Positions 3,559-57,176 of a stretch of DNA of 57,176 nucleotides are shown here, piece after piece (positions within the stretch are counted from its first letter, which is position 1; each line of letters starts with the position of its first letter). Origin of the DNA: a virus. Both the position numbers and the translations under genes were made by a program. The stretch lies in the IMG/VR virus record IMGVR_UViG_3300017963_000309, positions 1 through 57,176 of that record; one strand, 5' to 3'. The notes beneath the pieces were generated by a model, which saw nothing but the letters and a program-made list of their open reading frames with translations, ran no database searches and was not told the origin of the DNA.

Positions 3559-4206
3559 TTATTTTCTATACAAGTCGCCGAGAACGTCGCGCATCTTATT
3601 CTTATCTTCCCAAGTGAAGATGTCGGGTGAAGCGTAAGCTGAAAGAAATGTATTATAATCATGACCTAACCTAGTACAAATTTCTCCACCATCAATTCCT
3701 AGAGCCTTTAACCAATTCCCGTGCGTCTTCCTGAAAGTGTGGGAAGCGATGTTCCAATAATCTTTGATTCCGGCTTTCTGTCCAGCCTTCTTGTAAGCAA
3801 TGTTCAATGCCGGATTAGAAATGACGCCGATGTAATCATTATCTTTCAAATTATTATCACGGATATATTTTCGTAAGTATTTAGCGAATTGTGAGCTAAC
3901 AGAGATTATCCTAACCTTCCCCTTCTTCTCACCCTTCTTTGCTTTAGTTTTGGTGACCCTCAAGATGATTCTATGATTCTGAAGGTCACAATCTTCAACC
4001 TTAACATTTTGCACTTCCATAATCCTAGCGCCAGTATTAATCAGCACAATAACCGAATGTTTCTGCTTCGGTTTTAGAGCATCCTCAAACTTCATGTACT
4101 CATGCGGGAAGAAGAACCTATCCTTGTTATCTCTAAGCGTATATTGTTTGCCATTTTTGAGCCTTAAAGATTCCAAATTATCCCTTAAATCATCACTTTT
4201 TGCCAT
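3559..4206 (-). CDS. Tyrosine recombinase (integrase), short form
   Basis: 215 residues. The catalytic set is visible: R61 in NTGARIMEV, a Lys in the beta-hairpin near 86-88, H156-x2-R159 in SHTFRK, H182 in RLGHD, and nucleophile candidate Y191 in LSAYASPD. The N-terminal core-binding domain is much shorter than in usual 300-residue enzymes. Acts in site-specific integration or dimer resolution. Upstream, CTTTATAC about 25 nt before the ATG suggests a leaderless transcript. The TCGGTA-rich gap just downstream could hold the attachment site. Confidence 0.88.
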   Translation of the reverse strand: MAKSDDLRDNLESLRLKNGKQYTLRDNKDRFFFPHEYMKFEDALKPKQKHSVIVLINTGARIMEVQNVKVEDCDLQNHRIILRVTKTKAKKGEKKGKVRIISVSSQFAKYLRKYIRDNNLKDNDYIGVISNPALNIAYKKAGQKAGIKDYWNIASHTFRKTHGNWLKALGIDGGEICTRLGHDYNTFLSAYASPDIFTWEDKNKMRDVLGDLYRK

Positions 4207-13223: not shown

Positions 13224-13336
13224 TTTATCTTCTCCTTAATTTCTATTAACAATCCCCTTATATCAAACAACAATTCGGGTATAGTTTCAAAACTATTATT
13301 CACTTCTTGCATTTCTTCTTTAGTTAATCTCGGCAT
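13220..13336 (-). CDS. Small helical protein, 38 aa
   Basis: Starts MPRLTKEEMQEVNNS. Its stop shares ATGA with the helicase start and its own start lies inside the upstream gene. A coupled leader or small partner of the helicase. Confidence 0.55.
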   Translation of the reverse strand: MPRLTKEEMQEVNNSFETIPELLFDIRGLLIEIKEKIK

Positions 13337-13752
13337 TTTTCTTTCTCCATTTTTTCTTTAATTATCCTGTTATATGTTTGTTCATGTTTGACCTTAAATT
13401 CTTCTTCCGTCAAATTCTTGTAAATTCTTTCATCACATTTCTTACAATTATACTGTTCCCAGTATTTCCACTTATCCTTTGGTAAGGGCATTTTTGTGTC
13501 ATTCTTCCAATCCCAATCTCTTGTAGTAATTGTATAGTATTTTGGTTCATCTTCCAAATCATGTTTATCATCTCCGCAATCAATTCTTTTCGTTGTATAT
13601 TTTCTAATCGTTTCTGTTGTAAGCGTAAACTTCTCTCCACAAGTTTCACACTCGTATTCTTCTCCGTCACTGTCATCAAACTCCCAACTATCAGAATACT
13701 CATAGTTACAATGTGGACAAATTATCTCATCTTCATTAAAGTGTTCTACCAT
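13324..13752 (-). CDS. Zinc-ribbon protein, 142 aa
   Basis: CPHC and CETC near 12-40 form a zinc ribbon in an acidic N-terminus; a second pair CKKC lies near 103. The C-terminus is a charged helix. Probably adapts proteins or nucleic acid. Confidence 0.65.
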   Translation of the reverse strand: MVEHFNEDEIICPHCNYEYSDSWEFDDSDGEEYECETCGEKFTLTTETIRKYTTKRIDCGDDKHDLEDEPKYYTITTRDWDWKNDTKMPLPKDKWKYWEQYNCKKCDERIYKNLTEEEFKVKHEQTYNRIIKEKMEKEKCRD

Positions 13753-37608: not shown

Positions 37609-37672
37609 TGTCCATAGTTTTTGGACGCACCTTTTCTTTAAATATGTGAGCGAGCACTGGAGAGTGAGAACA

Positions 37673-37746
37673 TAGTCCCGCGAGGATTCGAACCCCGGTA
37701 TCTGATTCCAAAGACCAGCGCATTTGTCCAGCTATGCTACGGGACT
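37673..37746 (-). tRNA. tRNA-Gln (TTG)
   Basis: Acceptor AGTCCCG/CGGGACT, anticodon stem CTGGT/ATCAG with loop CTTTGGA (TTG), T loop TTCGAAT, discriminator A. No CCA encoded. Confidence 0.9.
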
Positions 37747-37749
37747 AAA

Positions 37750-37824
37750 TGGGGCTGCGCGGATTCGAACCACGATAACGTACTTCCAAAGCACGGATAC
37801 TAAACCAAATTATATTACAACCCC
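37750..37824 (-). tRNA. tRNA-Pro (TGG)
   Basis: Acceptor GGGGTTG/CAGCCCC, anticodon loop TTTGGAA (TGG) on stem CGTGC/GTACG, T loop TTCGAAT, discriminator A. Three bases from tRNA-Gln. Confidence 0.9.
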
Positions 37825-37911
37825 AGTTAAGAAAAAATGTCTATTCACTGTTGGGGCTGCCAAATTGTCATAAGAAAAATAAAGAAAAAGGTTATTTAAA
37901 GTTTATCATGT

Positions 37912-38070
37912 TTACTTGATAATCTTTCTTTTTTGACATTGCATACACCATTCAACAGTTCGCTTGAGATACTTCTTTCCAGTCTTTCGGTCACCACGAC
38001 CGTACCTCTTGAAAACACGATGAACAGTTTCTTCTCCGCAATGTTTGCAAAGTTGTTCGTTGTACTTCAT
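37912..38070 (-). CDS. Basic zinc-ribbon protein, 52 aa
   Basis: CKHCG near residue 8 and CMQC near 42, Arg/Lys-rich between (KRYGRGDRKTGKKY). Probably binds nucleic acid. GGAGG is 7 nt before the ATG, within a hairpin (next entry). Lies between tRNA genes. Confidence 0.65.
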   Translation of the reverse strand: MKYNEQLCKHCGEETVHRVFKRYGRGDRKTGKKYLKRTVEWCMQCQKRKIIK

Positions 38071-38076
38071 TTAAGC

Positions 38077-38099
38077 CTCCACGTTTAAATCACGTGGAG
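38077..38099 (-). promoter_or_regulatory. Hairpin covering the ribosome site
   Basis: On the minus strand CTCCACGT and ACGTGGAG form an 8-bp stem with a 7-nt loop; the 3' arm contains the GGAGG used by the gene starting at 38070. Could limit translation until melted or bound. Confidence 0.5.
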
Positions 38100-38150
38100 C
38101 TTCTTTGCTTACTCATTATGAAATGAGAGTTTGATACTATTTAAATTTTA

Positions 38151-38221
38151 TGCGAGCAAAGGGAATTGAACCCCCGCTAAATGGTTGGAAACCACTTGTC
38201 ATACCACTAGACCATACTCGC
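38151..38221 (-). tRNA. tRNA-Gly (TCC)
   Basis: Acceptor GCGAGTA/TGCTCGC, loop TTTCCAA (TCC), T loop TTCAATT, discriminator A. Last of six tRNAs packed with 2-4 nt between them. Confidence 0.9.
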
Positions 38222-38223
38222 AA

Positions 38224-38310
38224 TCGAGGGAGTAGGATTTGAACCTACGAGGACATAAAAGCCCATGGAGCTTAAATCCATTCCGTTTGACCAGACTCCG
38301 GCATCCCCCG
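38224..38310 (-). tRNA. tRNA-Leu (TAA)
   Basis: Class II with a long variable arm. Acceptor CGGGGGA/TCCCTCG, anticodon stem ATGGA/TCCAT with loop TTTAAGC (TAA), T arm GTAGG-TTCAAAT-CCTAC. Confidence 0.9.
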
Positions 38311-38313
38311 GAA

Positions 38314-38399
38314 TGAAGGGTACAGGATTCGAACCTGTGTAGGTCAAGAGACCACGAGTCCTAAGCCCGCCCCGTTTAACCTGACTCCGGCAACCCTTC
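38314..38399 (-). tRNA. tRNA-Leu (TAG)
   Basis: Class II. Acceptor GAAGGGT/ACCCTTC, loop CTTAGGA (TAG), T arm ACAGG-TTCGAAT-CCTGT, discriminator A. Confidence 0.9.
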
Positions 38400-38403
38400 A
38401 ATA

Positions 38404-38475
38404 TGGACTCTGAGGGTACTGACCCCCCTCCTCCTCGTTGCAAACGAGGTATGCTACCAGTAACACCAAGAGCCC
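38404..38475 (-). tRNA. tRNA-Ala (TGC), odd T arm
   Basis: Acceptor GGGCTCT/AGAGTCC, perfect anticodon stem CCTCG/CGAGG with loop TTTGCAA (TGC). The T loop reads GTCAGTA instead of the usual TTCRA pattern, on stem GGGGG/CCCTC. It may be divergent or poorly functional. Confidence 0.82.
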
Positions 38476-38477
38476 AA

Positions 38478-38549
38478 TAGACCCGCAGGGATTCGCACCC
38501 CAGTCGCCGCCGTGTAAAGGCGGAGTGATAACTCCTACACTACAGGTCT
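38478..38549 (-). tRNA. tRNA-Val (TAC)
   Basis: Acceptor AGACCTG/CGGGTCT, perfect stem CCGCC/GGCGG with loop TTTACAC (TAC), T loop TGCGAAT, discriminator A. Confidence 0.88.
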
Positions 38550-38551
38550 GA

Positions 38552-38624
38552 ACCGACCGGGCGGACTTGCACCACCTCCACGGGGATATGACCCCACGCA
38601 CACTACTTGTTATGTTACAGTCGG
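38552..38624 (-). tRNA. tRNA with CAT anticodon (Met type), odd loops
   Basis: Acceptor CCGACTG/CGGTCGG is perfect and the T stem GGTGG/CCGCC is sound, but the T loop is TGCAAGT. The anticodon arm is unusual: CGTGGGG/CCCCGTG can pair over seven positions and leave only TCATAT as loop. The GGG/CCC pairs recall initiator tRNAs, but the first pair is C-G, not the archaeal initiator A-U. Elongator, initiator or Ile-CAU type cannot be told. Confidence 0.75.
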
Positions 38625-38634
38625 AATATGAAAT

Positions 38635-38693
38635 GGCAAGCCCCGTCAATCCTACTAACCGCATCAAAGCACAGGGTTCGTCAGGGGCTTGCC
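38635..38693. ncRNA. Structured RNA candidate, domain 1
   Basis: GGCAAGCCCC (38635-38644) pairs perfectly with GGGGCTTGCC (38684-38693). Inside, AACC/GGTT can form a second helix. No coding frame is credible. The orientation is unknown because both strands fold; it continues the tRNA array on the minus strand. Confidence 0.45.
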
Positions 38694-38770
38694 AAGCCCC
38701 GGTTCGTGCCTTACCCTCTTATGTTATGGCAGGCTCAATAGTTAGAGCCGAGGGTCTTTATCAGGGCTTG
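38693..38770. ncRNA. Structured RNA candidate, domain 2 (nested helices)
   Basis: Three nested perfect helices: CAAGCCC/GGGCTTG (38693-38699, 38764-38770), CCCTC/GAGGG (38714-38718, 38750-38754) and GGCTC/GAGCC (38732-38736, 38745-38749). The AAGCCCC at 38694 can also pair with GGGGCTT at 38684, so domains 1 and 2 compete. Confidence 0.45.
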
Positions 38771-38865
38771 TATGATTTGTCGGTTTTATAGTCTTTTTCA
38801 ACGAGCGAATTCTTCACATGAGCGACAAGTGTTCTTCCCGTCCTCAAGACTTTTTGTGCCGCGCG

Positions 38866-38953
38866 TTATCTAACAGATAACTATAAGTGGTAACGGGCGG
38901 CAGTAAAGCTTCAGACGCAAATCCTAATGGCGCTAAATGCGGTGCCCGTTACC
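38866..38953. other. Two hairpins: TTATCT-AAC-AGATAA and GGTAACGGGC stem
   Basis: TTATCT/AGATAA (38866-38880, 3-nt loop) and GGTAACGGGC (38889-38898) with GCCCGTTACC (38944-38953), loop of 45 nt. GC-rich in an AT-rich genome. Together with 38635-38770 this 300-base stretch carries no gene and is probably RNA or an origin-like structure. Confidence 0.4.
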
Positions 38954-39028
38954 GAGGTACATCACACATAATGATGCAAAATAAAAGAAAAATGAAATTT
39001 AAATATTTATCCCACTACTGGGAAGAAG

Positions 39029-39367: not shown

Positions 39368-39410
39368 TCTGGGTTGTTTCCTCCATAATTTAGTTGAATT
39401 TGATAGTTTA

Positions 39411-39505
39411 CTAGACAGACTAGACAGACTAGACAAAGATTTGAATTAGGTGTCCTATAGGGAATTAATTGAGAAACCCGTCTAGTTTGTCTAGTTTGTC
39501 TAGTT
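39411..39505. repeat. Iteron-like TCTAGTYTG repeats, possible origin
   Basis: Three 9-bp units of CTAGACAGA type (39411-39438) face three units of GTCTAGTTT type (39480-39505), giving a long inverted repeat around about 40 bp of AT-rich DNA. It lies between the primase-helicase gene and its neighbour. Could be the replication origin or an autoregulatory operator. Confidence 0.6.
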
Positions 39506-39509
39506 ACGC

Positions 39510-41609
39510 TTAAATTTTCCATTTTACCCCCATCCAACACCTCATTTGACCGCCTTTTCCGTCCCATAACCAATTAAAATACTTCTTTTCTTGCTCAAAC
39601 CCCATTGAAGTTAGCTTTTTCTTAATATTATGGTCGGATAATTCACGATGTTTATTTTCCACACACCACTGTTTAAACTTTTTATTGAAATCACTGACAC
39701 CAATGTACCCATTTCCATCATGTTCACAATTCTCATCAAAGAATTTTTGAAAGAAATCGCTCTTATCTTCATACCTTTTCATTCTTTCCTCTACTGACCC
39801 TTCATTAGTAAACTCACGATTTTTGATAAGTTCTTTTAAAAGACCCAGACATTTTTTTGCCAAGTTGTTATATTCTTCTTCAGGAATATCTACAAGAATA
39901 TCTTTCTTTTCGGTGAACTGGTTTGGGAAATCTATAATGAGCCATCTCCTATAGAAACCGATTGTTTTGTCATTAGTGGTGGGAAGGTTATTAGTGGCAA
40001 TAATTATCTTTGCGTAATTCTTATCTTCGAAAGGATTTTTATTTTTATACTCAAAATTCATCAAGTCTCCACCGGTTAATTTCTTTAGGGTAGATGTCTT
40101 TGACATCTCATTGAAATTTGTCTCACCCATCATGCAAACTAATTTTCGATGTAATCTTGTGACTTCAAATCTTGATTGTAATAAAACATCTAGTTCGGTT
40201 GCACAACAGTTATCCGTCCCAATGAATTTCCTTAGAAGGTCGAGATACTTACTCTTACCATTCATCCCACCACCGATGAAGCAAAATAAACGATTAATGG
40301 GATAATCTGGAACCATACAATAGGCAATGATTTCATATAAGGTTTGAACATGGTCTTTTCCGACCCACTCTTCAAAAATCCTATCCATGGTTGGCGTATC
40401 AGACGTTTTCCCCATCTTGTAGGGGATAGGATTTGTAGCTTTATATTTTGGAGTTGCCATAAACTTTTCTCCAGTTTCAAAATCGTAAATCTCATCATCG
40501 AATTGTATCCATGTAGGTTTAATTTCTGGAGGGATAATCTTCCTTGTGTATTGTTTTAGGGAATTAAGTATTTTCGTTCTGTGAGAAGGAGTAATAATAT
40601 CCTGTCCTGTTGCAGTTTCAACAACATTAAGAACGTCAACTTCATCTACAATCTTCCAATAATGTTTTTCCTTATTCCATAACCACCACATCCCGCTTTC
40701 ATCATAATACATTGGTTGCATCCCAGTATAAGTTTCAGTTTGACCTTGGATTGAGAATATCTTTTCAGTTTCCTTCTTAACATAATCTCTTCGAGATTGT
40801 TTAAGTTCATCTTCGAGACTGGCTTCTTCTGCAAGTAACTCAAGTGCATCTTTGAATGAACATTTCTTATATTCTTTCACTAAACTAAAGATATTCCATG
40901 AACCATCGCAGTGGAAACAGTGAGCCGTCTCATCATTAAAGCCAAGACATTTACCACCGGCTGAAGCGTGAAATAAACATTGTGTAGGATTCTTTGTTGT
41001 ATCAATTCCCAGTGAGGAAAGGACGTCACCCATCGTTAACTTTGATTGTATTTGATTCAAGAAGTCGTCTTCAATTTCCATCTTCGGCATCTCGATTTTC
41101 GCTTCCTTCTTCCGAGGATTCTTGTCAAAGAACATTAAGATTGCTTTTAATTCTGCGTAGTCAATACTAGCTATTGAAATATCTTCAACTACTTCATATT
41201 TGGTTCCGTTTGGGTGAATTGAGCCGGCGCCGACCACCTGCTTCCCTTCCCCCTGAACATCAGCTAACGTATTCATATTTTCGTCGAAGACCTTGAAGCT
41301 GTCTGCCAAGTTGGTAAAAAAATACTTATGCAATAATCCAGAACCGGTACGAACGGTAAAAGTTTTGGGTAAGACTTGTATCGCATCCTCTTGAACATCA
41401 GCATCATCAAAGTCAACAATTACTAATTGTTCAACACCTCCACCCATGACGCCATAGTTACCACCCTCATTTAGATGTGAAATTAGTTCATCATCATCGT
41501 AGGATATCTTTTTCTTTTGCCATTCCTTCTGGAACGGTCTCTTTCCGGATTTTTCTAATAAAACAAAATTAATACCTTCTTTTTGTAATTGCTTAGGAAT
41601 TGTCACCAT
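39510..41609 (-). CDS. Primase-polymerase / zinc / D5-P4 SF3 helicase fusion
   Basis: 699 residues. The N-terminal prim-pol domain has VDFDD (65-69), TGSGLLHKY (88-96) and VVGAGSIHPNG. A CHC2-like zinc module follows (C211, H214, C221, C231, C234). The D5-type N region leads into the SF3 helicase with Walker A GGGMNGKS (446-453). The C-terminal winged helix ends WKI. Primes and unwinds at the viral origin, likely the adjacent iterons. The zinc module inserted between primase and helicase is less usual. Confidence 0.88.
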   Translation of the reverse strand: MVTIPKQLQKEGINFVLLEKSGKRPFQKEWQKKKISYDDDELISHLNEGGNYGVMGGGVEQLVIVDFDDADVQEDAIQVLPKTFTVRTGSGLLHKYFFTNLADSFKVFDENMNTLADVQGEGKQVVGAGSIHPNGTKYEVVEDISIASIDYAELKAILMFFDKNPRKKEAKIEMPKMEIEDDFLNQIQSKLTMGDVLSSLGIDTTKNPTQCLFHASAGGKCLGFNDETAHCFHCDGSWNIFSLVKEYKKCSFKDALELLAEEASLEDELKQSRRDYVKKETEKIFSIQGQTETYTGMQPMYYDESGMWWLWNKEKHYWKIVDEVDVLNVVETATGQDIITPSHRTKILNSLKQYTRKIIPPEIKPTWIQFDDEIYDFETGEKFMATPKYKATNPIPYKMGKTSDTPTMDRIFEEWVGKDHVQTLYEIIAYCMVPDYPINRLFCFIGGGMNGKSKYLDLLRKFIGTDNCCATELDVLLQSRFEVTRLHRKLVCMMGETNFNEMSKTSTLKKLTGGDLMNFEYKNKNPFEDKNYAKIIIATNNLPTTNDKTIGFYRRWLIIDFPNQFTEKKDILVDIPEEEYNNLAKKCLGLLKELIKNREFTNEGSVEERMKRYEDKSDFFQKFFDENCEHDGNGYIGVSDFNKKFKQWCVENKHRELSDHNIKKKLTSMGFEQEKKYFNWLWDGKGGQMRCWMGVKWKI

Positions 41610-42408: not shown

Positions 42409-42729
42409 TTATTTTGACCAATCAATATTTTTGTTTTGAATCGTTACTTTTTCCCATTGTCTTCCAAAATAATCTAAATTGCCAGTTCCTTCATCTTTAA
42501 GCCTATCCATATATCTCTTTTTCTCCTTTTCAAATTCTGTCCCAGTCATATCATATTCTTCTTGCCTCTTCCGATTAAAAGGTCTACAGTCGAATAAGTC
42601 TGGAACTTTATCACCGTCTCTGTCAGGTAGAAGTTTACGCATGAAAGATTTTTTATTTGGTGTCATCCGACCCCAACGTTTCTGTTGCGGGACTGATGCA
42701 CCTTTTGTGTTTTTCTTAAATCCAAACAT
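42409..42729 (-). CDS. TSP3-motif basic protein, copy A
   Basis: 106 residues. MFGFKKN start, QQKRWGRM, then DRDGDKVPDLFDCRPFNRKRQ, a thrombospondin type-3-like calcium motif. Shares this block with 42783-43100 and 45705-46475. Small, basic, from a strong leaderless promoter, so possibly an abundant particle protein. Confidence 0.65.
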   Translation of the reverse strand: MFGFKKNTKGASVPQQKRWGRMTPNKKSFMRKLLPDRDGDKVPDLFDCRPFNRKRQEEYDMTGTEFEKEKKRYMDRLKDEGTGNLDYFGRQWEKVTIQNKNIDWSK

Positions 42730-42782: not shown

Positions 42783-43100
42783 CTACCATCTATAGGGCAA
42801 GTTATTTGTCATGGCATCTTCCCATATCACATATTCATCTGCGTAACAATCATCGCAAACTCCTAAATCCACTATCTCTTTTTCTTTCTTGCAACGCTTA
42901 CAGATTTTATTTCTTTTTCTACTATCCTGTCTCTTGCGATTAAATGGTTGACAATCGAAATGGTCAGGGACTTTATCTCTATCCCTGTCCGGTAGAAGGA
43001 GTCGATTAAAACTCTTTTGTTGTGGTGCCATCATTGCCCACCTTTTCTGTTGGTACGGTGATGCGCCACTTATCTTCCTATTTTTCCCAAATCCAAACAT
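42783..43100 (-). CDS. TSP3-motif protein with zinc knuckle, copy B
   Basis: 105 residues. MFGFGKN start, QQKRWAMM, DRDRDKVPDHFDCQPFNRKRQ, then a zinc ribbon CKRC ... CDDC absent in copy A. Same promoter as copy A. Recent duplication with exchange of the C-terminal half. Confidence 0.65.
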   Translation of the reverse strand: MFGFGKNRKISGASPYQQKRWAMMAPQQKSFNRLLLPDRDRDKVPDHFDCQPFNRKRQDSRKRNKICKRCKKEKEIVDLGVCDDCYADEYVIWEDAMTNNLPYRW

Positions 43101-43139
43101 ACGAGAAATAGGAATTCAAACTTTAAATAACTTTACTTT
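43101..43139 (-). promoter_or_regulatory. Leaderless promoter, copy B of duplicated block
   Basis: Identical to 42730-42768; drives the gene starting at 43100. Confidence 0.7.
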
Positions 43140-43153
43140 ATCCGTAGAAAACA

Positions 43154-43295
43154 TTTTAAAGATTGTTGTTGTAGAATATTGAAGGAAAGAAGTTCGAAAG
43201 AACTAGCAAAGGGAAAGAAGTTCGAAGGTTTCAAAATATTAAATTCAGCTAATGTTTTGAATTCTTCAAAGTTAATAAACCTTTCTCTTATTTAG
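43154..43295 (+). ncRNA. Small RNA candidate 1 of 3
   Basis: TATA-like TTTTAAAG (43154) is followed by GTAGAATATT (43171). Then comes a 15-nt direct repeat GGAAAGAAGTTCGAA (43184, 43212) in which the hairpin AGTTC-GAAA-GAACT has a GNRA tetraloop. It ends in a T-rich stretch near 43285. No coding frame. Shares its plan with 45164-45275 and 45351-45445. Confidence 0.5.
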
Positions 43296-43319
43296 TGGTA
43301 ACTTTCAAATAATAAAAAA

Positions 43320-43571
43320 ATGAAAATCGGAAAAATAAGTCATTTGTTTAACTTTAAGCAGAACTTTTATTGTGCTCATTGTGTGAAGAAGATGAAGAGG
43401 AGTGAGGCTTATCTTCAGTTAAAAATGGAATGGGGAAGATTCCAAGAGAGTTACCCTAAGTTGTGTAAAGAATGTTTTATGAAGATTACCGAAAATGCAG
43501 AGTGGTTCTTCGAGAATGAAGAAGAAGAATATAATAATTGGGTAACTCAGAAAAAGCTTGATAAACTTTAA
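43320..43571 (+). CDS. Zinc-knuckle protein, 83 aa
   Basis: CAHC (18-21) and CKEC (near 50) with an acidic helical end. A lone + strand gene between minus-strand genes; ACTTTCAAATAAT before it could be its promoter, or it may be read from small RNA 1. Confidence 0.6.
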   Translation: MKIGKISHLFNFKQNFYCAHCVKKMKRSEAYLQLKMEWGRFQESYPKLCKECFMKITENAEWFFENEEEEYNNWVTQKKLDKL

Positions 43572-43574
43572 ATT

Positions 43575-44384
43575 TTAAGGCATCATAGGGACAATATTTG
43601 TTGAACCGTTACCTAACGGCGCTTGCATCGGAGGTTCGGTTTCTGCTGCTTGTTGACCGGCAATTTTACAAGTCTCCATCGAGACATCGTAAGTCAAGTA
43701 AAGGAAGACAATTCCCAGAACACCGACGACGGCGATGACTGCAATCGGAAGTAAATATTTCATAAACTTGTCATACTTCGCTATCCTTCTTAATCTTGAA
43801 TTTTCGATTTCGTTCAACGTCGTGTTAACGTCGTCCCAGTCGATGACGTCGAATTCCATGACGCCGAGATGGTCGCGGATGTTGAACGGTACTAAATTTT
43901 CATGGTAAACTGTTTGCCCTTTTTCATCTAACATTTCTTTTACCGCGATGAAGTTTCCATTCTCATCTTCAGCCATTAGACCTTTCTCGGTTGACGTGAC
44001 TTTTATTGGCTTGTACTGCTTACTTCCATATTTTAATAGGTGAACTTTACCGACGGTTGGACGCAATTTATTGATTAACCATTCCAATAAGTTTGTTGGT
44101 TTGTAAGCATAATGTAGCACGCAGTCGAAAGGTACAACGTCTATTGTATCCCTCATTTTTTGTAAGATATAATTCGTGTGCCCCGTTTCTTTCTCAAAAA
44201 TTCTACCCAACCTATCGTTTGTTACAATAATATTATCGCCACGTCGTTCAAGGATTTCGGCATCGAGTGGAAACTTGCCCCACTTAAACTTTGCTATCAC
44301 TAGAGCGCCAACAGGGATTACCCACCATGAGAAGTATGCAACGAAAATCCATAACGCGTTCATTGTTTGTTCTAAAATTGCCAT
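43575..44384 (-). CDS. Membrane protein with cytoplasmic domain, 269 aa
   Basis: An N-terminal helix (about 9-33), a long soluble alpha/beta domain, a second helix (about 209-231), and a Pro/Ala tail ending NIVPMMP. No family recognised; probably a particle or assembly membrane protein. Confidence 0.7.
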   Translation of the reverse strand: MAILEQTMNALWIFVAYFSWWVIPVGALVIAKFKWGKFPLDAEILERRGDNIIVTNDRLGRIFEKETGHTNYILQKMRDTIDVVPFDCVLHYAYKPTNLLEWLINKLRPTVGKVHLLKYGSKQYKPIKVTSTEKGLMAEDENGNFIAVKEMLDEKGQTVYHENLVPFNIRDHLGVMEFDVIDWDDVNTTLNEIENSRLRRIAKYDKFMKYLLPIAVIAVVGVLGIVFLYLTYDVSMETCKIAGQQAAETEPPMQAPLGNGSTNIVPMMP

Positions 44385-44385
44385 C

Positions 44386-44505
44386 TTAATTCATGCTAAG
44401 GACAACGATGACAAGTATCATCGCTAAAATTGCTTTAATTATTTCGAAGCCGAGGATTCCTGCAATCATCCCTTGCAAGAACCGTTTATTTTCAGCTATC
44501 ATCAT
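44386..44505 (-). CDS. Tiny membrane protein, 39 aa
   Basis: Starts MMIAENKRFLQGMIAGI; one helix to the end. Lies 1 nt from both neighbours. Confidence 0.6.
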   Translation of the reverse strand: MMIAENKRFLQGMIAGILGFEIIKAILAMILVIVVLSMN

Positions 44506-44506
44506 T

Positions 44507-45115
44507 TTATTCGTAAGGTGTTCTAGGCTTCCTCTCACCTATCTGCGCTGACTCAATTCGTTTCACTGTTTGTGATATTGCCTTTAAGACTCTACCATCT
44601 TTCTGCATTGTTCGCGCGTCTTGAACTTGTTGTTTAATTTTTTTGAAGACCATGGAACGTAGGGCTTTTTCTATCCCCCATTCCTTCCTCTTCATTGTAA
44701 GTAAGTATGATAGAACTTTTTCGAACTCATGCAAATCCAAATTCATCTCTCTGTCATCAGTGGTACCCATCGGCGTGATTTGGTTCACACCACACATTTT
44801 TATTGCTGACAAGATTTCTTCAATCGCTTCATCGTGGGGGACGTAGATTTCCACGACTTGCCCGTACGGGTCTTTAACTTTTTCCTTGATAGGTTTTTCA
44901 GTCTTAGTATTGGTTCGGATGAATAAAGGTTTAGAAACTTGGAACCAAATATTTTCACCTTCCGGTGTTTGAATTAGCTCCTCGCCACGGAACTCGTGGC
45001 GGAGGACTTGGAGGATTTTATGGGCGCCAGTCAAAACTTCAACCAAAGAAGCAATTTGTTGTTTTGTCTGCGCCTCATCAGGATAATATGATTGAGACTC
45101 GTCACCAAAGTCCAT
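44507..45115 (-). CDS. Hypothetical protein, 202 aa
   Basis: Soluble, helical ends and a beta-rich centre. ATTTATAAG about 28 nt before the ATG suggests a leaderless start. First gene of a three-gene unit with two membrane proteins. No family recognised. Confidence 0.68.
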   Translation of the reverse strand: MDFGDESQSYYPDEAQTKQQIASLVEVLTGAHKILQVLRHEFRGEELIQTPEGENIWFQVSKPLFIRTNTKTEKPIKEKVKDPYGQVVEIYVPHDEAIEEILSAIKMCGVNQITPMGTTDDREMNLDLHEFEKVLSYLLTMKRKEWGIEKALRSMVFKKIKQQVQDARTMQKDGRVLKAISQTVKRIESAQIGERKPRTPYE

Positions 45116-45163
45116 GGGAAAACTAAGCAGTTTTTACTTATAAATAGTCGGGAAAAATATAAA

Positions 45164-45275
45164 ACTTTAAGTAGAAGCGATGCGTGGAATATTCATAAAA
45201 ATCATGTAAGGGATGAATAATTCGAAAGAATTAGAAATCATGTAAGGGTTCCCACCGAACTCTTATCTTTTCTAA
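45164..45275 (+). ncRNA. Small RNA candidate 2 of 3
   Basis: ACTTTAAG (45164) then GTGGAATATT (45184). A 13-nt direct repeat AATCATGTAAGGG (45200, 45236) flanks the hairpin AATTC-GAAA-GAATT (45219-45232). A T-rich end follows near 45270. No coding frame. Confidence 0.5.
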
Positions 45276-45350
45276 TGAAATGAATTATAAAAATCTATGG
45301 GTAGTTGAAACTCTATTTCCTAGTAGTATATTTTGAGGGGAAAATATAAA

Positions 45351-45445
45351 ACTTTAAGTAGTTCATCCTCGTAGAATATTAAAAGGAATGAATAATTAAA
45401 ACCAGAAAAAGGAATGAATAAGACGGGCAGTCTTATTCTTTCTAA
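45351..45445 (+). ncRNA. Small RNA candidate 3 of 3
   Basis: AAAATATAAAACTTTAAGTA (the 20 bases up to 45360), as before candidate 2, then GTAGAATATT (45371). The direct repeat AAAAGGAATGAATAA (45381, 45407) is followed by hairpin AATAAGAC-GGGCA-GTCTTATT (45417-45437) and a T-rich end. No coding frame. Confidence 0.5.
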
Positions 45446-45517
45446 GTATCCGTTTTATTTAAATCTTTGCTAGTTAGAACTATATCATTTTAATATATAT
45501 TTTGTGGGAAAAAGAAG

Positions 45518-45733
45518 TCAACGTAAAGAAACCTTCCCTCGACATCGCCATTTCTTTCTTGACAATCTTAAAGGTGAACAGGGATTCTTCGCTGCTTCAG
45601 GGAATTCAAGAAGTTGAGCATAAGAACGGGCACAGTAAGAGTCACCTTTTTTAGTCCCGGGTTTTATCGTTGCACCTTTTTGTCCATGTTCAACAACTTT
45701 CCCGTCACACTTTGTCTTCCACTTCTTTTCCAT
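45518..45733 (-). CDS. Viral small Cys protein (PGTKKGDSYCARS type)
   Basis: 71 residues. CDGKVVEHGQKGATIKPG, TKKGDSYCARSYAQ and LSRKKWRCRGK form a pattern I associate with small archaeal-virus and phage proteins of unknown role. Overlaps the upstream gene by 29 nt. Confidence 0.65.
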   Translation of the reverse strand: MEKKWKTKCDGKVVEHGQKGATIKPGTKKGDSYCARSYAQLLEFPEAAKNPCSPLRLSRKKWRCRGKVSLR

Positions 45734-46475
45734 CTTCTAAATCTAATGCTTGTAGAACGTCAGGTTTTTCTTCCTTATTTTCTTGTAAGGCTTGCGCTCG
45801 ACGGTTAGGAGCCTTAGCTTCGTATTCTTCTTGACTTTCCCCTTTGTGCTTCCAATGAGGTAAAGGATACTGTTTTCTATGCCGTGGTAATTTTGAAGTT
45901 TCAGGTTCCTTTTCGTGATAATAGCTATCAACTGTAACTGGGATTTCTTCTATTCCTAGTTCCTCAGCCGCAATGGCTGTATGTCTTCCTTCGTGACCTG
46001 CTGGTTTACCTTCACGATATTCTAAGAAACCTATAGGTACACTTTCTTTTTTGGATTTAATCTTCTCTTTTATTGGTTTAATACTACTTCTATTTTTTTT
46101 AAAGTATGATTTATAATCTTCATAACTTTCTTTGTAATCAGGGTCTCTTTCTTGCGCTTCTCGATAGGTTTCTTTTAAGAATTTCTCAGGTTTCATTTTA
46201 ACAGTTTTTATTCGTTTAGCGCTGGTACTAGAAAAACCGTATTCGTGAGCCCAACCTTTTTTCTTCCGATTGAAAGGTTGACAATCGAAAATGTCGGGAA
46301 CTTTATCCCGGTCGCTGTCAGCGAAGATGGCACGATTAAACATCTTTTGTCTCTTCGGCATACCCGCCCAACGCTTTTGCGTGAAGAGTGAAGCGCCTTT
46401 TTTTACCGCCTTTTTTTTAGGAAGTTTAGAACTAAGGAAATTTATTCGCGGTTTTTTGTTTGTGATTCCTAACAT
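45705..46475 (-). CDS. TSP3 motif plus ParB-like domain protein
   Basis: 256 residues. A basic N-terminus, FTQKRW, DSDRDKVPDIFDC (53-65) as in the two copies at 42.4-43.1 kb, a Lys-rich linker, then GHEGRHTAIAAEELGIEEIPV (160-180), the core of the ParB/sulfiredoxin fold that binds nucleotide. Acidic end. Joins the TSP3-like block to an enzyme-like domain. Confidence 0.72.
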   Translation of the reverse strand: MLGITNKKPRINFLSSKLPKKKAVKKGASLFTQKRWAGMPKRQKMFNRAIFADSDRDKVPDIFDCQPFNRKKKGWAHEYGFSSTSAKRIKTVKMKPEKFLKETYREAQERDPDYKESYEDYKSYFKKNRSSIKPIKEKIKSKKESVPIGFLEYREGKPAGHEGRHTAIAAEELGIEEIPVTVDSYYHEKEPETSKLPRHRKQYPLPHWKHKGESQEEYEAKAPNRRAQALQENKEEKPDVLQALDLEDGKEVEDKV

Positions 46476-56819: not shown

Positions 56820-57083
56820 TTTTCTTTGAGGTTGTTCCTGTATCATATTCAATAAAGTATTGCGCGGCAATGTACTGTGATGTTTGGTTGGGTACTGTTT
56901 TCTAAGGTAAGGAATTATATTCATTGGGTGCTGTGTGGTTTTGTCAAGTGATGTATTGTTTGTCGCGGTTCTGTAGAGTAAGGTAAGGAAATTATATTCA
57001 TACGGTTCGGTTAGTTCCGGCTTGGCAAAGTCCTGTGGGCTGTTGCGGGGTGGGGTTCGGTAAGGTAAGGATTTCATATTCAT
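56820..57083 (+). repeat. G/T-rich modular array, right end
   Basis: Three blocks split by TAAGGAATTATATTCAT (56904), TAAGGTAAGGAAATTATATTCAT (56980) and the separator at 57061 that abuts tRNA-Ile. The gap 56649-56819 holds no gene. Same design as 83-478. Confidence 0.7.
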
Positions 57084-57176
57084 AGGCTCGTAGCTCAGTC
57101 AGGTTAGAGTACTGCTCTGATACGGCAGAAGTCACGGGTTCAAATCCCGTCGAGCCTATTAGTTGTTGTGTGGTAA
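57059..57176 (+). repeat. 118-bp perfect repeat, copy 2 (window end)
   Basis: Identical to 454-571 and ends exactly at the window end. See copy 1. Confidence 0.95.
57084..57158 (+). tRNA. tRNA-Ile (GAT), second copy
   Basis: Identical to 479-553. Either a duplicate gene or the same gene met again on a circular molecule. Confidence 0.9.

Follow-up and report, generated by a model that had tools for sequence, protein, structure and literature searches.

Pectobacterium phage PhiTE carries, in its wild-type form, an intergenic pseudo-ToxI with 1.5 repeats of a 36-nt unit, and expanded copies defeat ToxIN (PMC3475682). Type III antitoxins (ToxI, CptI, TenpI) likewise consist of repeats followed by a terminator (PMC5086642). 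Three elements of a DPANN-archaeal provirus, described here, invite comparison with both. By analogy, the pseudo-ToxI of PhiTE would be their nearest functional counterpart, although membership of its class is unsupported. Like pseudo-ToxI, the elements are virus-encoded, intergenic, apparently non-coding and hold about 1.5 copies of a unit of about 36 nt. Unlike it, they match no curated antitoxin RNA family, repeat only 14-17 nt of each unit, and occupy three loci with three repeats, their own archaeal promoters and no known toxin partner. With type III antitoxins they share a promoter, short tandem repeats and a terminator hairpin, and an ORF follows element 1. Their repeats are however fewer and shorter, and there is neither an Rfam match nor, so far, a recognisable toxin. 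A type III antitoxin or pseudo-ToxI would be expected to repeat a whole unit of about 34-38 nt in tandem; in elements 1, 2 and 3 the units measure 28, 36 and 26 nt and occur in 1.4-1.6 copies, with only 14-17 nt identical. PADLOC gave no match on the immediate neighbours of the elements.

The virus-borne mini-CRISPR arrays of Portogloboviridae (PMC6858448) are also similar in layout, with a promoter- or leader-like block followed by repeat, spacer and repeat in an archaeal virus; the repeats here are 14-15 nt and differ between loci. A CRISPR mini-array was rejected since it needs identical repeats of about 24-37 nt and spacers of at least about 30 nt, and the gaps here are 11-22 nt. Archaeal regulatory small RNAs (PMC3432209) resemble the elements in being intergenic and short, with their own promoter, a hairpin and a T-rich end. 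A box C/D or H/ACA guide RNA was rejected, as the RUGAUGA/CUGA or ANA/ACA boxes are incomplete by inspection and no snoRNA matched the elements on the + strand. We know of no archaeal regulatory small RNA in which the 5′-end sequence is repeated downstream.

Probable provirus setting and host group

The window, meaning the whole 57,176-bp stretch analysed (IMG/VR virus record IMGVR_UViG_3300017963_000309), contains a 118-bp exact direct repeat with tRNA-Ile at 454-571 and 57059-57176 and an integrase gene at 3559-4206. The two copies are probably attL and attR, and on account of the direct repeats and the integrase gene we read the window as a provirus with a left host flank (1-453). Short G-rich repeats such as GGTAAGGTAAGG flank the left tRNA-Ile on both sides (100-700), and motifs of similar appearance (GGCAAGGCAAGGC, GGTCAGGGTCAGGG) occur in L096 and L100, two contigs of related viruses. 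When the tRNA-Ile was searched as a relaxed pattern, the matches were two bacterial and seven archaeal records, and four of the latter bear Pacearchaeota in their titles. The viral primase is 62% identical to that of a relative (G187) in the same phylum as the matching Pacearchaeota, relatives of the viral ATPase are found in that phylum at 36-40% identity, and a primase alignment search recovered 21 related IMG/VR contigs. Judged by these comparisons, the virus belongs to tiny DPANN archaea and has relatives in Pacearchaeota-like genomes and in IMG/VR.

Several other regions of the window merit record. ARAGORN and Rfam identify seven viral tRNAs at 37672-38622 (−): Gln, Pro, Gly, two Leu, Val and one more at 38404-38475; an eighth, with a CAT anticodon by eye, is likely at about 38550-38622. 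The cluster adjoins a GC-rich segment at 38625-38985 (−) that folds strongly (z −3.4, 0/100 shuffles) and has no Rfam match, possibly a large structured RNA. Between the primase gene and its downstream neighbour, 39396-39517 may form a long inverted repeat of 9-nt tandem units (ACTAGACAG x2.9 and GTCTAGTTT x2.9). Three paralogous proteins encoded at 42409-42729, 42783-43100 and 45705-46475 (−) share DxDxDKVPDxFDCxPFNRK; a search of IMG/VR with an alignment of all three confirmed no relatives.

Promoters and direct repeats

The features of the three elements, in which R1 and R2 denote the upstream and downstream copies of each direct repeat, are as follows.

43154-43161 (+): element 1, TATA-like box TTTTAAAG (TTTAA calibration)
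43171-43180 (+): element 1, promoter-proximal box GTAGAATATT, −13 to about −2 (motif scan; position from the calibration)
43184-43198 (+): element 1, R1, at the predicted start 43182-43184
43191-43204 (+): element 1, GAAA-tetraloop hairpin AGTTC-GAAA-GAACT, overlapping R1
43209-43289 (+): element 1, predicted terminal hairpin with pyrimidine-rich 3′ arm (whole RNA z −4.2)
43212-43226 (+): element 1, R2, within the 5′ arm of the terminal hairpin
43320-43571 (+): 83-aa zinc-ribbon-like ORF downstream of element 1
45150-45517 (+): tandem duplication of the entire small-RNA cassette, 45150-45336 and 45337-45517 (alignment against shuffles)
45165-45171 (+): element 2, TATA-like box CTTTAAG, inside the 25-nt promoter repeat 45150-45174
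45184-45193 (+): element 2, promoter-proximal box GTGGAATATT (motif scan)
45199-45212 (+): element 2, R1, extending to a 17-nt form (94%) from 45196; predicted start 45193-45195
45219-45232 (+): element 2, GAAA-tetraloop hairpin AATTC-GAAA-GAATT
45235-45248 (+): element 2, R2
45242-45266 (+): element 2, terminator-like hairpin GTAAGGGTTC..GAACTCTTAT followed by CTTTTCTAAT
45352-45358 (+): element 3, TATA-like box CTTTAAG, inside the promoter repeat 45337-45361
45371-45380 (+): element 3, promoter-proximal box GTAGAATATT (motif scan)
45381-45395 (+): element 3, R1, at the predicted start 45380-45382
45407-45421 (+): element 3, R2, in the 5′ arm of the terminal hairpin
45412-45442 (+): element 3, predicted terminal hairpin GAATGAATAAGAC-GGGCA-GTCTTATTCTTTC (z −3.5)

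The exact direct repeats are GGAAAGAAGTTCGAA at 43184 and 43212, AAATCATGTAAGGG at 45199 and 45235, and AAAAGGAATGAATAA at 45381 and 45407. No other exact direct repeat in the 57 kb reaches 12 nt at a spacing of 18-48; at 14 nt or more a third-order Markov model predicts 0.05, against three observed. The box GTRGAATATT occurs three times in the whole window (43171, 45184 and 45371), always on the + strand, with 0.52 sites expected. Each repeat pair begins 0-5 nt after one of these sites and all lie in intergenic gaps. The combined pattern GTRGAATATT + AAGGRAWGAA + TTMRAAM, itself drawn from these elements, matched three times and never in 100 shuffles. A preliminary description of this DNA had proposed three related elements built to one plan, with TATA-like boxes, direct repeats that differ between loci, two GAAA-tetraloop hairpins and T-rich ends. 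All of these are borne out: the boxes are present upstream of each element, the GTRGAATATT sites and the only qualifying repeats coincide in 3/3, both hairpins are found and all three ends are pyrimidine-rich. That the elements are one real family of small RNA genes, with a common promoter and plan and a repeat of their own in each, is well supported by the sequence.

The distance from TATA box to start was calibrated on 519 ORFs of at least 120 aa from the window, related viruses and Pacearchaeota-like/DPANN contigs. TTTAA is most frequent at −29 to −27 relative to the ATG (16, 9 and 15 occurrences, against 0-8 elsewhere between −45 and −13), with a peak at −29 when the ORFs of the window are taken alone. 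Such a peak just upstream of the ATG is the expectation for leaderless archaeal genes. The calibration predicts starts at 43182-43184, 45193-45195 and 45380-45382. R1 starts at 43184, at 45199 (45196 in the 17-nt form) and at 45381, so that no element has its R1 more than about 0-6 nt from the predicted start. A TATA-like box 25-30 nt upstream of the start is characteristic of an archaeal small RNA gene, and the calibrated distance of TTTAA is 27-29 nt. It follows that GTRGAATATT, at −13 to about −2, is most likely untranscribed promoter DNA and that the RNA is predicted to begin with R1. The box had originally been taken for a conserved RNA leader, a view that the calibration displaces. Across 1.9 Mb of related loci and loci of the phylum (both strands), GAATATT shows no enrichment at this distance from TTTAA; this, together with the absence of GTRGAATATT elsewhere in the window, marks the box as a signature of the three-element family. 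A sigma-70 promoter scan was set aside as irrelevant to archaea.

Predicted folds, paralogy and distribution

The predicted folds of the three RNAs have a common plan, in which an exposed R1 is followed by a linker and then by R2 inside a terminator-like 3′ hairpin with a pyrimidine-rich 3′ arm. The mean unpaired probability is 0.67, 0.76 and 0.91 for R1 and 0.22, 0.30 and 0.33 for R2 (elements 1, 2 and 3), and the z-scores of the whole RNAs are −4.2, −2.35 and −3.5. A simple scan also flags two of these hairpins as terminator-like, that of element 2 on the + strand and that of element 3 on the − strand only. The C-GAAA-G hairpins of elements 1 and 2 are the only 5-bp GAAA hairpins of this type in the window and differ by one compensatory G-C/A-T change. 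The order repeat, hairpin, repeat of the preliminary description holds for element 2 only; the hairpin of element 1 overlaps R1 and element 3 has none between its repeats. Elements 2 and 3 have no + strand ORF of at least 60 aa to explain them. Element 1 could also be the 5′ leader of the ORF at 43320-43571. The three elements are apparently non-coding RNA genes.

Elements 2 and 3 align with a score of 162.5 (94 ± 8 in shuffles) over a cassette of about 180 nt, and their promoter repeats are 96% identical over 25 nt. Element 1 scores 60 against element 3 (36 ± 6 in shuffles) and 53 against element 2 (37 ± 6). By these alignments the genes of elements 2 and 3 are tandem duplicates, to which element 1 is a more distant paralogue. 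In the alignment of elements 2 and 3 the R2 copies fall together, R1 of element 2 sits in an insertion relative to element 3, and the element 2 sequence opposite R1 of element 3 no longer has a second copy. Although the sequence is short and gapped and only this one alignment bears on it, the pattern suggests that element 2 re-created its R1 from its own diverged R2. Since the match of R1 to R2 would have been re-established in element 2, the identity of the two copies appears to be maintained.

The family is absent from the 21 related viral contigs and from the G187, G413, G390, G009, G296 and G324 loci. Searches of viral contigs with single proteins and with the promoter pattern gave no relatives, and a pattern scan of IMG/VR returned 14 matches, none with a downstream repeat and most of them coding-looking or chance. 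The preliminary description had proposed a covariance search for the plan in related genomes; a model of the three elements gave only chance-level matches over 371 genomes of the phylum and over 31 related loci. A blastn match in a contig of the closest relative turned out to be coding. One intergenic sequence in a cellular DPANN genome (L077:505-620, G195), reading TTTAAAT - ATAGAATATT - C AAGGAAAAGAGGCGAAAGAATCAG, is strikingly similar to elements 1 and 2; it was rejected as probably a chance resemblance, being unconserved in the 75 genomes of its family and having a score expected by chance. Primase identity to the nearest viruses recovered is only about 62-64%, and an RNA that changes rapidly could for this reason escape such searches. 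The three-element family appears, so far, to be an orphan restricted to one lineage.

Candidate functions and rival explanations

Our preferred reading, held tentatively and still short of an even chance, is that the DPANN-archaeal provirus carries three genes for small non-coding RNAs, and that these RNAs would act in trans by base-pairing through an exposed R1. Each gene would be expressed from its own archaeal promoter, consisting of a TTTAA box and the common GTRGAATATT box at about −12, to give an RNA of about 65-115 nt starting at R1. R1 would stay single-stranded at the 5′ end, while R2, the identical copy 26-36 nt later, would form the lower part of a 3′ hairpin closing on the pyrimidine-rich, terminator-like end. 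The exposed R1 might then pair with a complementary RNA of the host, a rival or the virus, R2 would be its protected second copy, and the three paralogues would have diverged toward different partners. Pairing in trans is favoured because an exposed 5′ repeat is combined with a second copy and a terminator-like hairpin, and different partners are favoured over one protein because the repeat differs in each copy. The family relationship, promoter layout, repeat identity and predicted fold are taken from the sequence, and from them we infer transcription, base-pairing and any target; pairing through R1 is the leading but unproved mechanism. Complements of the repeats, proposed earlier as a means of finding targets, gave no antisense match in the viral genome beyond chance except for a marginal one, between the repeat of element 2 and the 5′ region of 13324-13752 (0/100 shuffles, one of six tests). 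Of the earlier proposal of an RNA family with its own recognition sequences, the family, promoter, plan and individual repeats thus survive. The roles suggested with it, as regulators, decoys or anti-defence RNAs, are conjectural: no convincing viral target, no Rfam match and, in 371 genomes of the phylum and IMG/VR, no homologue emerged.

The resemblance to PhiTE makes a ToxI-like decoy or antitoxin mimic worth weighing, in which about 1.5 copies of a 26-36-nt unit and a terminator hairpin would occupy a sequence-specific RNase or RNA-binding defence protein of the host. The repeats-then-terminator order agrees with this, the units of 28, 36 and 26 nt are close to the 36 nt of the phage locus, and element 1 even precedes a small ORF. 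However, its zinc-ribbon-like product is no known toxin, the repetition covers only 14-17 nt per unit, and three different repeats would require three partners. No antitoxin RNA family of Rfam matched 43100-45520 up to E 10, and PF13958 (ToxN) was not matched in 193 genomes of the phylum, although the control search was also silent. We regard such a mimic as improbable. We would give little credence to a related speculation, in which a viral family of self-repeating decoys in DPANN archaea presents its 5′ sequences twice, in about 1.5 copies of a 26-36-nt unit, and so ties up three distinct RNAs or RNases of host defence; this would be counter-defence akin to pseudo-ToxI, but archaeal and with diversified repeats. 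A conformational switch, in which R1 and R2 compete for one 3′ arm and so toggle two hairpins, for instance in a leader of the ORF at 43320-43571, would exploit the exact identity of R1 and R2, the contribution of R2 to the final hairpin's 5′ arm in 3/3 folds and the location of element 1 just upstream of that ORF. It is nonetheless doubtful, as complementarity between the repeat and the 3′ arm beats shuffles only in element 3 (10/300; 184/300 and 90/300 for elements 1 and 2) and elements 2 and 3 have no downstream + strand ORF.

A start site with paired direct repeats is also typical of operators, and for two of the three elements a divergent gene begins about 80 nt away. The repeats, at +1 to about +50, could then be DNA sites for regulators that shut their own promoters or the divergent genes at 43100 and 45115. 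Yet one regulator cannot read all three, for the box is common but the repeats differ; spacings of 26, 28 and 36 do not keep to a single DNA face, element 3 has no divergent gene, and the compensatory change in the GAAA hairpins and the terminal hairpins point to RNA. Operators are thus an unlikely reading. The elements were also considered as iterons of a replication origin, and this was rejected because the GC-skew minimum lies near 50 kb, at a switch in gene orientation and away from them. Copies of promoters and gene starts followed by slippage duplications might instead have left non-functional remnants, an origin that would fit both the tandem duplication and the lack of homologues in relatives. 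Against this, the promoter block has stayed almost intact (96% over 25 nt), 3/3 elements have their exact repeats in the same place with a co-occurrence far above chance, and the folds are stronger than those of shuffles; we consider decay possible but not likely.

To our knowledge almost nothing is known about the non-coding RNAs of DPANN-archaeal viruses. A small RNA family whose 5′ end is duplicated downstream, with a repeat apparently re-created independently in paralogues, would offer a clear and testable instance of an archaeal virus diversifying at the RNA level, possibly for counter-defence.
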